DNA of 64,000 bases, from positions 87,175 through 151,174 of the forward strand of contig JADCGQ010000012.1 in NCBI GenBank assembly GCA_020248945.1. Direction: 5' to 3'. The translations under genes were made by a program, and so were the position numbers. Below, one piece after another: positions 28,452-34,279 of this stretch. Each line of letters begins with the position of its first letter. The stretch's first letter is position 1. This DNA is from Rubrivivax sp. (GTDB taxonomy: Bacteria > Pseudomonadota > Gammaproteobacteria > Burkholderiales > Burkholderiaceae_C). The notes under the pieces were generated by a model. It saw only the letters and a list, made by a program, of their open reading frames with translations, ran no database searches and was not told the DNA's origin.

Positions 28452-30572
28452 ATGAAACTCCTTCCCTCGTTGTTTGCGCTCGGCCTCGCCGCCACCGCCC
28501 TGGCCGTGGCGGCGCAGGGCTCGGCTGTCGTCACCACGCCACAGGTGAAGGCCGGGCTGGTGGCCCATGCGCCCGAGGGCCTGGTGCCGGGCAAGCCCGC
28601 CTGGCTGGGCCTCAAGATCGAACACAAGCCGCACTGGCACACCTACTGGAAGAACCCCGGCGATTCCGGCCTGCCGACGACGCTGACCTGGACGCTGCCG
28701 CCCGGCGTGAGCGCCGGCGAGATCGACTGGCCGACGCCGAAGCGGCTGCCCATCGGCCCGCTGATGAACTTCGGCTACGAGGACACGCTGCTGCTGCCGG
28801 TACCGCTGTCGGTGCCGGCGGGCTTTGCCGGCGGCACGCTGGAGGTCAAGCTCAACGCCGAGTGGCTGGTCTGCAAGGATGTCTGCATCCCGGAGAGCGG
28901 CGAGTTCGTGCTGCAGCTGCCGGTGAACGCGGCCACCGCCGGACACGCGGCGCTGTTCGCGGCTGCCCGCGCCGCGCGCCCGCAGGACGTGGCGGGCGCC
29001 GATGCCAAGGCCGCCGTCGAAGGCCCTGATCTGGTGGTGCGCGTGACCGGCCTGCCGGTGGCGTGGCAGGGCCGCGAGCTGGGCTTCCTGCCCGAGACGG
29101 TGGGCGTCATCGTCAACGCCGCCAAGCCGCAGACCTCGTGGGACGCCGGCACCTGGACGGCGCGTGTGCCGCTCGATCCGCAACGCAGCGACTCGCCCAC
29201 CACGATGCCGCTGGTGCTGACGAGCGCCGGCGAAGTGGCCGGCCTGCGCGTGGCCGCCACCGTCACCACGCCTTGGCCGGCCGTGGCCCCGCCGGCGCCG
29301 CTGCCAGCACTGGGCAACGCCGAGATCACGCTCGCTCCCGCGGCCGCCGCGCCACCGGGCTTCGTGCTCGCCGTGGCCTTTGCGCTGGTGGGCGGCCTCA
29401 TCCTGAACCTGATGCCTTGCGTGTTCCCGGTGCTGTCGCTCAAGGTGCTGGGCTTTGCGCGCACCGGGGCTGATCGCCGAGCGCAGTTGGCCGGCGGCCT
29501 GGCCTACACCGGGGGCGTCGTGCTCAGCTTCGTGGCGCTGGCGGCGGTGCTGCTGGCCTTGCGTGCCGGCGGCGAACAGCTCGGCTGGGGCTTCCAGCTG
29601 CAGCACCCGGCGGTGGTGGCGGTGCTGGCGGCGCTGTTCACGCTGATCGGCCTCAACCTGGCCGGCGTCTTCGAGTTCGGCTCGGTGCTGCCCTCGTCGT
29701 GGGCCGGCGCGCAGGCGCGGCATCCGGTGGCGGACCACTTCCTCACCGGCGTGCTGGCGGTGGCCGTGGCCAGCCCGTGCACGGCGCCGTTCATGGGCGC
29801 CTCGCTGGGTGCGGCCATCACCATGCCGCCGGTGCAGGCGCTGGCGGTGTTCGCGGCCCTGGGCCTCGGCATGGCCTTGCCCTACCTGGCCGCCAGTGCC
29901 TGGCCGGCGCTGGCGCGCGCGCTGCCGCGGCCGGGCATCTGGATGCAGCACTTCAAGACGCTGATGGCCTTCCCGATGTTCGCCACCGTCGTGTGGCTGG
30001 TGTGGGTGCTGGGCGTGCAGGTGGGCATCGACGGCGCCGTGGCGCTGCTCGGCCTCTTGGTGGCGCTGGCCTTCGTGGCCTGGGCCGTGGGCTCGCCGAC
30101 GCTCGGCCCCAAGGCCCGCGGCGGCTTCGGCACCGCCGCCGTGCTGCTGCTGGTGGCGGCCCTCGTGTGGGCGGCGCCGGCCTTGCGCCAGGACGCCATC
30201 GCCGGCGGCAGCGCCGCGCAGGCCAGCGACGGCTGGGAGCCCTGGAGCACCGCTCGCGTGGCCCAGGCCCAGGCCGAGGGCCGCACGGTGTTCGTCGACT
30301 TCACCGCCGCCTGGTGCGTGACCTGCCAGTTCAACAAGCGCACCACGATGGCGGCCGATGACGTGAAGGCGGCGTTCGCCGACAAGCAGGTGCTGCGTCT
30401 GCGCGCCGACTGGACCAAGCGCGACCCCGCCATCACCGAGCAGCTCACGCGCTACGGCCGCAGCGGTGTGCCGGTGTACGCCGTCTATACCCCCGGCGCA
30501 GCAGGGCCACGGCTGCTGAGCGAAATTCTCTCGGTCGACGAGGTGCTCGGCGCGATTGGCGCCGGGCGCTGA
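28452..30572 (+). CDS. dsbD: DsbD-type protein-disulfide reductase
   Basis: N-terminal periplasmic domain (CKDVCIPESGEF), 8-TM core (LNLMPCVFPVLSLKVLGF; SPCTAPFMGASLG), C-terminal thioredoxin domain AAWCVTCQFNKRT. Confidence 0.93.
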   Translation: MKLLPSLFALGLAATALAVAAQGSAVVTTPQVKAGLVAHAPEGLVPGKPAWLGLKIEHKPHWHTYWKNPGDSGLPTTLTWTLPPGVSAGEIDWPTPKRLPIGPLMNFGYEDTLLLPVPLSVPAGFAGGTLEVKLNAEWLVCKDVCIPESGEFVLQLPVNAATAGHAALFAAARAARPQDVAGADAKAAVEGPDLVVRVTGLPVAWQGRELGFLPETVGVIVNAAKPQTSWDAGTWTARVPLDPQRSDSPTTMPLVLTSAGEVAGLRVAATVTTPWPAVAPPAPLPALGNAEITLAPAAAAPPGFVLAVAFALVGGLILNLMPCVFPVLSLKVLGFARTGADRRAQLAGGLAYTGGVVLSFVALAAVLLALRAGGEQLGWGFQLQHPAVVAVLAALFTLIGLNLAGVFEFGSVLPSSWAGAQARHPVADHFLTGVLAVAVASPCTAPFMGASLGAAITMPPVQALAVFAALGLGMALPYLAASAWPALARALPRPGIWMQHFKTLMAFPMFATVVWLVWVLGVQVGIDGAVALLGLLVALAFVAWAVGSPTLGPKARGGFGTAAVLLLVAALVWAAPALRQDAIAGGSAAQASDGWEPWSTARVAQAQAEGRTVFVDFTAAWCVTCQFNKRTTMAADDVKAAFADKQVLRLRADWTKRDPAITEQLTRYGRSGVPVYAVYTPGAAGPRLLSEILSVDEVLGAIGAGR

Positions 30573-30604: not shown

Positions 30605-31219
30605 ATGCAGATGCTCGCCCGCACCCTGGTCGCCACCACGCTGGCGCTGGCCGCCACCGCGGCGCTGGCCAACGCCACCGTCGGCCAGCCGGCGCCGGCC
30701 TTCACGGCGACCGACGCCGCCGGCAAGTCCGTCTCGCTGGCCGACTTCAAGGGCAAGCACGTCGTGCTCGAGTGGGTGAACCCCGGCTGCCCGTACGTCG
30801 TCAAGCATTACAGCAGCGGCAACATGCAGGGCACGCAGCGCGAGGCCACGGCCAAGGGCGTGGTCTGGCTCAGCGTCAACAGCACCGCCACCGACTCGCG
30901 CGACTACCGCGCTCCCGCCGACATGGCCGGCTGGATGCAGCAACAGAAGGCCGCCGCCACCGCCACGCTGATGGACGCCGATGGCAAGCTCGGCCGCGCG
31001 TTTGGTGCCCGCACCACGCCGCACATGTATGTCATCGATCCCGCCGGCAAGCTCGTGTATGCCGGCGCCATCGACAACAAGCCCAGCAGCAACCCGGCCG
31101 ACACCGCCACGGCCACCAACCACGTCAAGGTGGCCCTGGCCGAGCTGCTGGCCGGCAAGCCGGTGAGCACGCCCGTCACGCGGCCGTACGGCTGCTCGGT
31201 GAAGTACTCGTCGATGTAG
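30605..31219 (+). CDS. Periplasmic thioredoxin/peroxiredoxin-like protein
   Basis: Signal peptide, GQPAPAFTATDAAGKSVSLADFKGKHVVLEWVNPGCPYVVKHY (single-Cys GCPYV site, not CXXC). Confidence 0.87.
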   Translation: MQMLARTLVATTLALAATAALANATVGQPAPAFTATDAAGKSVSLADFKGKHVVLEWVNPGCPYVVKHYSSGNMQGTQREATAKGVVWLSVNSTATDSRDYRAPADMAGWMQQQKAAATATLMDADGKLGRAFGARTTPHMYVIDPAGKLVYAGAIDNKPSSNPADTATATNHVKVALAELLAGKPVSTPVTRPYGCSVKYSSM

Positions 31220-31291: not shown

Positions 31292-31543
31292 ATGGGCATG
31301 AAGACCTTCGATGGATGGAAGCTGCGGCGCCCTGTCGCGGCACTGGTGCTGGGTGCGATGGCGCTGCTCGGCGGCTGCGCGTCGATGGGCGTGCAGCCCT
31401 GGGAGCGCGACCTGCTCGCGCAACCCGCGATGGCGCCCGAGGGCGTGGCTCTGCACGGCGACCTCGACGACCACATCTACTTCAGCAAGGAAGCCGCCAC
31501 CGGCGGCCGCGGCTTCGGCGGTGGAGGCTGCGGATGCAACTGA
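31292..31543 (+). CDS. DUF4266-type small lipoprotein
   Basis: Lipobox ALLGGC, C-terminal GGRGFGGGGCGCN, directly upstream of a DUF3570-type gene. Confidence 0.8.
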   Translation: MGMKTFDGWKLRRPVAALVLGAMALLGGCASMGVQPWERDLLAQPAMAPEGVALHGDLDDHIYFSKEAATGGRGFGGGGCGCN

Positions 31544-32817
31544 GCCCCACCGATTGGCGAGCCGCCCTCGCCGGCGCCGCCGCCACGCTGCTGGCACCCG
31601 GGGCGCACGCCGCCGACGCCGCCACGCCCTGGCTCGTCGACACCGCCGTGCTGCTGTACAGCGAAGGCGGCGGCCGCGTGCGCGCCGTCGAGCCCGTGGT
31701 GGGCCTGAAGCGCACCGACGCCGCCGGGGTGACGACGGGCCTGAAGGTCACGCTCGACAGCCTCACCGGCGCCTCGCCCAACGGCGCCGTGGCTCAGCCC
31801 GGCGTGCAGACCTTCACCTCGCCCTCGGGCAAGGGCAGCTGGACGGCCGCGCCTGGCGTGCGCCCGCTCGACCCGAGCTTCAAGGACACCCGCGTCGCCC
31901 TGGCCGCCAACCAGGAACGCCCCTGGGGCGCCGACCAGCGCCTGAGCTACGGCGCGAACGTCTCGCGCGAGTACGACTTCACCTCGCTGGGCGCCAACGT
32001 CTCGCTGGCGCGCGACTTCGACCGCAAGAACACCACGCTGAGCATCGGCCTGGCGCTGGAGGCCGACCAGCTGCGCCCCGTGGGCGGCCAGCCCGCGGGC
32101 CTGAAGCCGATGTTCGGCGCCGGCTCGTCCAAGGGCGGCAACGGCTCGCGCCAGGTGGCCGACCTGCTGCTGGGCTGGACGCAGGTGGTCAACCGCCAGT
32201 GGCTGATGCAGCTGAACCTGGGCCTGGGCAGCGGCAGCGGCGAACATACCGATCCGTACAAGCTGCTGAGCGTGCTCGACGGCAGCAGCGGCCTCGTCAC
32301 CGGCTCGCGCTACGTGGCCGAGTTGCGTCCGGACAGCCGCACGCGCACGAGCCTGTTCTGGGGCCACAAGGTCAGCCTGGGACCGGGCGTGCTCGACGCC
32401 TCGTACCGCTGGTACGGCGACGACTGGGGCGTGCGCGCCCACACGGTCGACCTGCGCTGGCGCCACCCGCTGCCCGGCGGCGGCTTCGTGCAGCCGCGCT
32501 GGCGCCACCACATCCAGCAGGCCGCCGACTTCTACCGCCCCTGGCTCATCGAAGGCCGCGACTGGAACAGCACGACGCAGACCAGCCCGCTGTCGGCGGC
32601 CTCGGCCGACGAGCGCCTGGGCGCCTTCTCGGCCGACACGGTGGGCGTCACGCTCGGCTGGCCGCTGGCCCGCGACAGCCTGCTCACGCTGCGCGCCGAA
32701 ACCTATCGCCAGCGGCAGGACGCGCCGAGCGGCGCGCCCGGCGTGCTGGCCACGCTGGCACCGGCGCTCGACCTGAAGGCGACGATGCTGACGGTGGGAT
32801 GGTCGTTCCGCTGGTGA
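31534..32817 (+). CDS. DUF3570-type putative outer-membrane beta-barrel protein
   Basis: Signal peptide; LKVTLDSLTGASPNGA; alternating strand-like C-terminal half ending MLTVGWSFRW; start overlaps DUF4266 end. Confidence 0.83.
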   Translation: MQLSPTDWRAALAGAAATLLAPGAHAADAATPWLVDTAVLLYSEGGGRVRAVEPVVGLKRTDAAGVTTGLKVTLDSLTGASPNGAVAQPGVQTFTSPSGKGSWTAAPGVRPLDPSFKDTRVALAANQERPWGADQRLSYGANVSREYDFTSLGANVSLARDFDRKNTTLSIGLALEADQLRPVGGQPAGLKPMFGAGSSKGGNGSRQVADLLLGWTQVVNRQWLMQLNLGLGSGSGEHTDPYKLLSVLDGSSGLVTGSRYVAELRPDSRTRTSLFWGHKVSLGPGVLDASYRWYGDDWGVRAHTVDLRWRHPLPGGGFVQPRWRHHIQQAADFYRPWLIEGRDWNSTTQTSPLSAASADERLGAFSADTVGVTLGWPLARDSLLTLRAETYRQRQDAPSGAPGVLATLAPALDLKATMLTVGWSFRW

Positions 32818-33782
32818 GCCCCACCGAGGCCGACGCCGTGCCGTGGCTGCAGCGCGCAGCCGGCGGCTGGCGCGGTGGCTTCGATGCCATGGTCAGCCCT
32901 TGCGAGGTGCTGGTCGATGGCGTCGACGAGGCCACGGCGCGCCGTCTCGTGGCGCTGGCGCAGGACGAGGCGCTGCGCATCGAACGGCGCTTCAGTCGAT
33001 ACCGCGACGACAGCGTCGTCGCCCGGCTGCAGGCCGCCCGCGGCGGCTGGCAGTGGGTGGACGACGAGACGGCGCAGTTGCTCGACTTTGCCGCCCAATG
33101 CCACGCGCTCAGCAGCGGCCTGTTCGACATCACCAGTGGCGTGCTGCGCTCGGCCTGGCGCTTCGACGGCAGCGACCGCGTGCCCACGCCTGCCGCGGTG
33201 GCGGCGCTGTTGCCACGCGTGGGCTGGCAGCAGCTGCGCTGGCAGCGCCCGCGCCTGTGGCTGCCCGAGGGCATGGAGCTCGACTTCGGCGGCATCGGCA
33301 AGGAGTACGCCGTCGACCGCACGCTCGCGCGCCTGGGTGCCGACACGCCCGCGCCGATGCTCGTGAACTTCGGCGGTGACCTCGCCTGCAGCGGCCCGCG
33401 CGCCGACGGCAGCCCGTGGCAGGTGGGCATCGAGCAACCCGGCACCGCCGCTGCGGCCGCGGTGCTGAACCTGCGCACCGGTGCGCTGGCCACCAGCGGC
33501 GATGCGCGCCGCTTCGTGCTGCACCAGGGCCGCCGCCTGGGCCACGTGCTCGACCCGCGCACCGGCTGGCCCGTCGAAGGCGCGCCGCGCTCGGTGACAG
33601 TGTCCGCGCCGAGCTGCGTCGAGGCCGGCATGGTGGCGACGATGGCGCTGCTGCAGGGCGCGGGCGCTGCCGCCTGGCTGCGGCAGACCGGCGTGCCGCA
33701 CGCCCTGATCGACGAGCAGGGGCAGGTGCAAGCCCACTTCGACTACCCGCAACGGGAGGACGCTTCATGGCCCCAAGGATGA
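32814..33782 (+). CDS. apbE: FAD:protein FMN transferase
   Basis: FSRYRDDSVVARLQ, LWLPEGMELDFGGIGKEYAVDRT, VNFGGDLACSG, ATSGDARRFVLHQGRRLGHVLDPRTGWPV; GTG start overlaps DUF3570 stop. Confidence 0.92.
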   Translation: MSPTEADAVPWLQRAAGGWRGGFDAMVSPCEVLVDGVDEATARRLVALAQDEALRIERRFSRYRDDSVVARLQAARGGWQWVDDETAQLLDFAAQCHALSSGLFDITSGVLRSAWRFDGSDRVPTPAAVAALLPRVGWQQLRWQRPRLWLPEGMELDFGGIGKEYAVDRTLARLGADTPAPMLVNFGGDLACSGPRADGSPWQVGIEQPGTAAAAAVLNLRTGALATSGDARRFVLHQGRRLGHVLDPRTGWPVEGAPRSVTVSAPSCVEAGMVATMALLQGAGAAAWLRQTGVPHALIDEQGQVQAHFDYPQREDASWPQG

Positions 33783-34279
33783 CCCGCCGCAGCTGGCTGG
33801 CCGCACTGCCCTGCGGGGCCGCCCTCGGCCTGCTGCCCACGCGCAGCCAGGCCCTCGCAGCGGGCGACGCCGCGCCGGTGCTCGAGCTCGAGGGCGTGGC
33901 CGGGCCGGTGAGCCTGGCGGCGCTGCAGGGCCGTGTCGTGCTGCTGGACTTCTGGGCCTCGTGGTGCCCGCCGTGCCGGCAGTCGTTTCCGTGGATGGAC
34001 CAGATGCTGGCGCGGCACGGCGGCGCGGGCTTGTCGGTGGTGGCGGTGAACCTGGATCAGCAGCGTGGCGCGGCCGAGCTGTTCATGCGCGCCGTGCCGT
34101 CGCGGGCCACGATCGCGTTCGATCCGGCGGGCGACACGCCGCGGCGCTTTGGTGCGAAGGCGATGCCGACCAGCTTCATCATCGGCCGCGACGGGCGGGT
34201 GCGGCTGCAGCACGATGGGTTTCGGGAGGCGGATCAGGGGCCGCTGGAAATGGCGCTAAGGCAGGCACTGGGTGCTTGA
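33767..34279 (+). CDS. TlpA-family disulfide reductase
   Basis: VVLLDFWASWCPPCRQSFPWMDQ, AMPTSFIIGRDGRV; Tat-like RRSWLAAL N terminus. Confidence 0.92.
   Translation: MAPRMTRRSWLAALPCGAALGLLPTRSQALAAGDAAPVLELEGVAGPVSLAALQGRVVLLDFWASWCPPCRQSFPWMDQMLARHGGAGLSVVAVNLDQQRGAAELFMRAVPSRATIAFDPAGDTPRRFGAKAMPTSFIIGRDGRVRLQHDGFREADQGPLEMALRQALGA

Follow-up and report, generated by a model that had tools for sequence, protein, structure and literature searches.

A DUF3570 protein of Rubrivivax sp.: a predicted outer-membrane barrel with a likely flavinylation site at Ser81 and a linked ApbE of altered active site

Introduction

Does a DUF3570 protein encoded next to an apbE gene in Rubrivivax sp. carry covalent FMN and, if so, where in the cell would the flavin be attached and where would it end up? 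The question arises from a 64,000-nt stretch of contig JADCGQ010000012.1 (referred to throughout as the window), in which the original prediction, made from the sequence alone, proposed an ApbE-type flavinylation motif. Meheust et al. (2021) described DUF3570 as a new ApbE substrate, having found the Chlorobium luteolum protein to be flavinylated by the cognate ApbE (PMC8238504). The C. luteolum protein contains two conserved [ST]GA[ST] motifs, and its UV fluorescence on ApbE co-expression was lost once both acceptor serines were changed to alanine; when it was expressed in E. coli with the signal peptide removed, most of it went to the pellet (PMC8238504). Clusters of DsbD, thioredoxin-like, DUF4266, DUF3570 and ApbE genes were described in the same study and an electron relay was proposed in outline; in its main text the words “barrel” and “porin” are absent, and “outer membrane” is used once, on siderophore transporters (PMC8238504).

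Results

The motif and its gene cluster

The features of the locus are as follows.

28452-30572, forward strand: DsbD-type transmembrane thiol reductase with DsbD_N, DsbD_TM and a C-terminal thioredoxin domain (Pfam).
30605-31219, forward strand: AhpC/TSA-redoxin protein with a hydrophobic N-terminus, GCPYV and no CxxC (Pfam, sequence).
31292-31543, forward strand: small DUF4266 lipoprotein; lipobox LGGC with Cys29 at 31376-31378; C-terminal GGGGCGCN, CxC at 31529-31537 (Pfam, C-terminus comparison).
31534-32817, forward strand: DUF3570 protein of 427 aa, predicted 16-strand outer-membrane beta-barrel with a Sec-type signal peptide and a C-terminal aromatic residue (Pfam, AlphaFold2, Foldseek, topology).
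31756-31776, forward strand: ApbE-type flavinylation motif D75-S-L-T-G-A-S81, site 1 (translation, alignment, window search).
31774-31776, forward strand: codon of Ser81, the last motif residue and predicted FMN acceptor (alignment).
31816-31830, forward strand: T95-S-P-S98-G, the position of the second flavinylation site in two-site homologues (alignment).
32799-33782, forward strand: ApbE-family FAD:protein FMN transferase, no signal peptide found (Pfam E 8.9e-67, alignments).
33779-34279, forward strand: TlpA/ResA-like thioredoxin with WCPPC, which might instead start at the in-frame ATG at 33767 (Pfam, NCBIfam).

The DUF3570 ORF, which runs from the ATG at 31534 to the stop codon at 32815-32817, matched PF12094 over profile positions 3-427 of 427 (E 1.3e-112; 377 bits against a cut-off of 25). 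DsbD, thioredoxin-like, DUF4266, DUF3570 and ApbE genes are all present on one strand of the window, as in a DsbD-type cluster. The apbE gene had been placed directly after the DUF3570 gene, and its ATG at 32799 in fact overlaps the DUF3570 3’ end. The in-frame translation of 31756-31776 agrees with the DSLTGAS reading, and this segment exactly matches the minimal ApbE motif Dxx[ST]GA[ST], whose final residue is the acceptor (PMC12052999).

The exact pattern D..[ST]GA[ST] has no second occurrence in the six-frame translation of the 64-kb window. When the DUF3570 protein was shuffled with its composition kept, the pattern was present in 161 of 20000 shuffles, and as a DNA pattern across the whole genome it gave 49 matches, with no excess over the reversed control, and so adds nothing to the evidence. 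Conservation is a stronger argument for the motif than its rarity among shuffles, and it argues against a chance origin, which we dismissed.

Conservation of the motif and the classes of DUF3570

A scan with one genome per species led to 80 relatives, almost all of them Gammaproteobacteria, and the plasmid collection gave no match. In the resulting conservation alignment of 80 rows (the window protein and 79 homologues), the acceptor position 81 is Ser or Thr in 80/80 rows; L77, T/S78 and G79 are likewise kept in 80/80 rows, D75 in 79/80 and A80 in 74/80, the others having Ser (five) or Gly (one) in place of A80. The original prediction had turned on the invariance of the motif in homologues beside apbE; over the alignment and the loci the motif is kept, which leaves the claim standing. 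Natural class I variants with LTGSS, LTGGS or NSLTGAS (loci L067, L068, L075, L076, L082, L088 and L066) mostly adjoin apbE and would be useful natural tests of ApbE specificity. One class I DUF3570 locus (L069) lies on a contig labelled as a Klebsiella pneumoniae MAG, a label that appears doubtful.

The tree divides the DUF3570 proteins into three classes: class I with 81 rows including the window protein (support 97), class III with 19 rows (support 100), and class II with 20 rows, which was not recovered as a single clade. DUF4266 is encoded directly upstream of DUF3570 in all 117 loci with room (class I, 77/77), and ApbE is encoded at most 400 nt downstream in 72 of the 77 class I loci with room. 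A thioredoxin-like gene lies within 3 kb in 64/69 class I loci and a DsbD gene within 8.5 kb in 19/69. The extreme C-terminus of DUF4266, CGCN (31529-31540 in the window), is found in nearly all of 121 sequences, the exceptions being CGCK in L147 and CGCY in L176 and L177. The DUF3570 frames of these last two loci (G144:C23 and G250:C1, respectively) are double the usual length at ~890-912 residues and carry D-T-W-S-G-A-T.

Homologues with two sites carry both in one loop, the second motif ~11-17 residues after the first. The window protein has no second [ST]GA[ST]: the corresponding T95-S-P-S98-G is non-consensus for ApbE, with Ser98 invariant across class I. The second-site columns of class I mostly read T-[R/S/G/T]-P-S-G, which lacks the ApbE consensus, and 72/80 class I rows contain exactly one [ST]GA[ST]. 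At site 1, class III reads S-N-A-S or S-S-A-S in 17/20 loci and S/T-G-A-S in the other three, which are gammaproteobacterial; its site 2 is mostly x-T-A-S. A class III apbE lies ~5.7 kb upstream in 13/20 loci, all 13 from the window's family, and no apbE was seen near the gammaproteobacterial class III loci.

The window's genome holds a second DUF3570 copy (L152; G000:C35:71000-86000), which belongs to class III and has S-N-A-S for S-G-A-S. Its cluster encodes an HZS_alpha-matching protein, an SH3/OMP-barrel protein, TlpA and DUF4266, with apbE ~5.7 kb upstream. Across this locus and L142-L151 and L160-L161, no further canonical flavinylation motif is present save a chance-looking one within the L152 ApbE. 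Any DUF3570 is present in only 32/151 genomes of the window's family. Horizontal acquisition of the window DUF3570 is plausible, since its closest tree relatives are gammaproteobacterial and its Pfam score far exceeds that of the other DUF3570 proteins of its family.

A predicted outer-membrane barrel with the motif at its mouth

The AlphaFold2 model of DUF3570, built with the 80-row alignment, has a mean pLDDT of 92.5, a pTM of 0.86 and 16 barrel strands, the strand count and pairing direction being read from the secondary-structure string of the model. The protein had been called barrel-like; the model, Foldseek and topology sharpen this to a predicted 16-strand outer-membrane barrel. Long loops on one side, short turns on the other, an aromatic end and two periplasmic termini are the textbook anatomy of an outer-membrane barrel. 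In the topology analysis the outward loops measure 5, 39, 3, 23, 31, 4, 36 and 18 residues and the turns of the opposite side 2-5 residues, and an even number of antiparallel strands, a signal peptide and a C-terminal aromatic residue are all present; the sequence ends ...TVGWSFRW, with the terminal Trp after an alternating stretch. The best PDB matches by Foldseek were the outer-membrane porins OpdK, OmpG and AlgE, with the Mtr-complex barrel 6r2q_B lower in the list. The best matches (E about 1e-10) have TM-scores of only about 0.4 and are to be read as matches to the fold class; no solved structure related to DUF3570 by sequence was found.

In the model, the motif is located at the outward end of strand 3, where the 39-residue loop begins. 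Orientation was assigned by the general rule for outer-membrane proteins, which puts the motif on the long-loop side, presumably extracellular, where the flavin would then also lie. Among the 68 positions conserved at 95% or more, 51 are in the outward third or the outward loops and one is in a periplasmic turn. Since outer-membrane proteins tend to vary most in their outward loops, this concentration of conservation suggests that DUF3570 has an active site at its outer mouth.

Whether the DUF4266 CxC tail might dock in the barrel was also considered with a DUF4266-DUF3570 fusion model, in which DUF4266 residues 11-20 had a pLDDT of 80 and the CGCN tail was below 30, with no confident placement. 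Most loci encode the two proteins in different frames; the fusion was modeled from L102, the one locus with both in frame, and its TAA stops were read as Gly purely as a modelling device.

The linked ApbE

Ser241, His257 and Asp285 (V. cholerae numbering) have been named as conserved active-site residues of ApbE (PMC12052999). The window ApbE keeps the first two as Ser233 and His249 and has Gly277 (codon 33627-33629) in place of Asp285, a column confirmed by alignment with solved ApbEs; it departs from the canonical Ser/His/Asp set at the Asp and is still of the ApbE family by profile. This Gly is shared without exception (92/92) by the linked ApbEs of classes I and II. In the class III ApbEs the position is occupied by Glu, and the Thr after it is mostly replaced by Lys.

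Among the 106 ApbE frames of the DUF3570 loci, a simple test of hydropathy and lipobox pattern recognised no lipobox-bearing signal peptide; the test is not SignalP and took starts as predicted, some class III frames being partial. Few of the linked frames show marked hydrophobicity ahead of the domain (doubtful cases are L135 and L112), and the window ApbE has neither a lipobox nor a hydrophobic N-terminal segment. The secreted-type ApbE paralogues in the genomes of the relatives differ on both counts: 11/15 have the lipobox pattern and the remaining four hydrophobic N-termini, and the Asp is kept in 14/15 by pattern search and in the fifteenth by eye. Secreted ApbEs with a lipobox coexist with the linked ones in many class I genomes. 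The class I and II linked ApbEs, together with one further Gly-type copy, form one group apart from the secreted ApbEs (support 99/99). In the window's genome, an assembly that is 91.9% complete, only two ApbE matches were found, each close to a DUF3570 gene and lacking a recognised signal peptide, so that no secreted ApbE was found there; FMN_bind and DUF2271 had no match in this genome. The window ApbE looks cytosolic. We infer that it acts on DUF3570, and we do not put this more strongly because the gene is non-standard, having no recognised signal peptide and an Asp-to-Gly change.

Discussion

Is Ser81 flavinylated, and where?

The original prediction that the serine encoded at 31774-31776 carries FMN is supported by the flavinylation of the C. 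luteolum DUF3570 (PMC8238504) and by the conservation of the motif, and on this basis of homology and published biochemistry Ser81 of the window protein is likely flavinylated. The explanation that we consider probable is an outer-membrane barrel with one FMN on Ser81, attached by the co-operonic ApbE; the barrel would supply the flavin terminus of an electron path through the envelope. FMN would be held in phosphoester linkage to Ser81. DsbD would carry electrons over the inner membrane to a relay of thioredoxin-like proteins in the periplasm and the CxC lipoprotein DUF4266, and the flavin of the barrel would deliver them at the cell surface or close to it; this order and this direction of flow are our reading of the cluster. 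As the linked ApbE appears to be cytosolic, FMN may be attached to the chain before Sec export. Against the explanation as a whole count the missing Asp, the missing signal peptide, which is a poor fit with an exported substrate, and the low-confidence placing of the CxC tail in the fusion model.

The place of flavinylation is where the closest alternative lies. DUF3570 might instead be flavinylated in the periplasm, by the linked ApbE if it is exported by an unseen route or by a secreted ApbE, an alternative that rivals only the pre-export step and that we regard as quite possible, if not favoured. The lipobox-bearing secreted ApbEs of many class I genomes would supply such an enzyme; however, the conserved neighbour of DUF3570 is a leaderless ApbE, and the window's genome (92% complete) has two ApbE genes with no signal peptide on either. 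Taken to its full extent, the pre-export reading would make the system a haem-free path across the outer membrane, from DsbD, thioredoxin and the CxC lipoprotein to FMN held covalently in the barrel's outward mouth, in which a dedicated subfamily of leaderless ApbEs with an altered active site attaches FMN in the cytosol and the FMN-bearing chain then passes through Sec and folds into the outer membrane. This fuller scheme is tentative, and we would not expect all of it to hold.

A linked ApbE devoid of the Mg/catalytic Asp and of a signal peptide might not flavinylate DUF3570 at all, leaving the protein unmodified or otherwise modified. The uniform Gly of the class I and II linked ApbEs, set against the Asp of the secreted-type paralogues, speaks for this. 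Yet conservation of the acceptor in every aligned row beside an inactive enzyme is not expected, the equivalents of Ser241 and His257 are kept, and the cognate ApbE of C. luteolum does flavinylate its DUF3570 (PMC8238504), although that enzyme may have either Asp or Gly at the position; we therefore find an inactive ApbE improbable. Least probable of all is a purely structural loop in which an unmodified Ser81 packs in the barrel mouth: the adjacent G84, A85, S98 and P111 are as invariant in the alignment as the motif residues, and the S-N-A-S/S-S-A-S class retains the segment with no adjacent apbE, but direct flavinylation data exist for the DUF3570 family (PMC8238504), and an exact ApbE consensus with apbE next door argues against it.

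Flavinylation of the family is already established (PMC8238504), and the likely flavinylation of the window protein agrees with it and adds a member. Three points go beyond the publications cited here. First, DUF3570 is predicted to be a 16-strand outer-membrane barrel with the motif facing outward and conservation concentrated there. Second, the ApbEs linked to classes I and II show no recognised signal peptide and have Gly for Asp, and no secreted ApbE was found in the window's genome. Third, there is a sister class, with one copy in the window's genome, that has mostly S-[N/S]-A-S. The combination of a seemingly cytosolic ApbE of altered active site with an outer-membrane barrel as substrate is surprising and testable. 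Since the partner ApbE is systematically devoid of a recognisable signal peptide, it raises the question of whether flavinylation takes place in the cytosol and is followed by export of the unfolded protein to the outer membrane.

Comparison with known systems

The window DUF3570 and ApbE share with those of C. luteolum (ABB24424 and ABB24423, respectively) the Pfam family, a [ST]GA[ST]-type motif and a cognate apbE, whereas C. luteolum DUF3570 has two flavinylation sites and the window protein one consensus site, the first. Compared with the DsbD-type clusters of Meheust et al. (2021), the window has each of the five gene types, with differences in the thioredoxins: the published clusters have PF13899, which in the window was found nowhere but at the C-terminus of DsbD. 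The gene that lies between those for DsbD and DUF4266 encodes a thioredoxin-like protein of the AhpC/TSA type with no CxxC, and a TlpA-like gene follows apbE. The cytosolic ApbE of Klebsiella pneumoniae, which modifies a soluble fumarate reductase (PMC12052999), resembles the window ApbE in having no signal peptide, and is needed for one substrate. Its substrate, however, stays in the cytosol, whereas the window DUF3570 carries a signal peptide and is predicted to fold as an outer-membrane barrel.

The parallel with porin-cytochrome conduits (MtrB of the Mtr complex) is one of working only, in that a barrel with a periplasmic relay could pass electrons across the outer membrane; Foldseek matches DUF3570 to porins generally, which gives it no special kinship with the Mtr barrel. 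The Mtr complex is a cytochrome conduit, whereas the operon genes examined in the window include no multihaem cytochrome and have flavin and thiols instead. If the flavin does face outward, DUF3570 would act as a flavoprotein conduit of the outer membrane, the flavin-and-thiol counterpart of the porin-cytochrome complexes.
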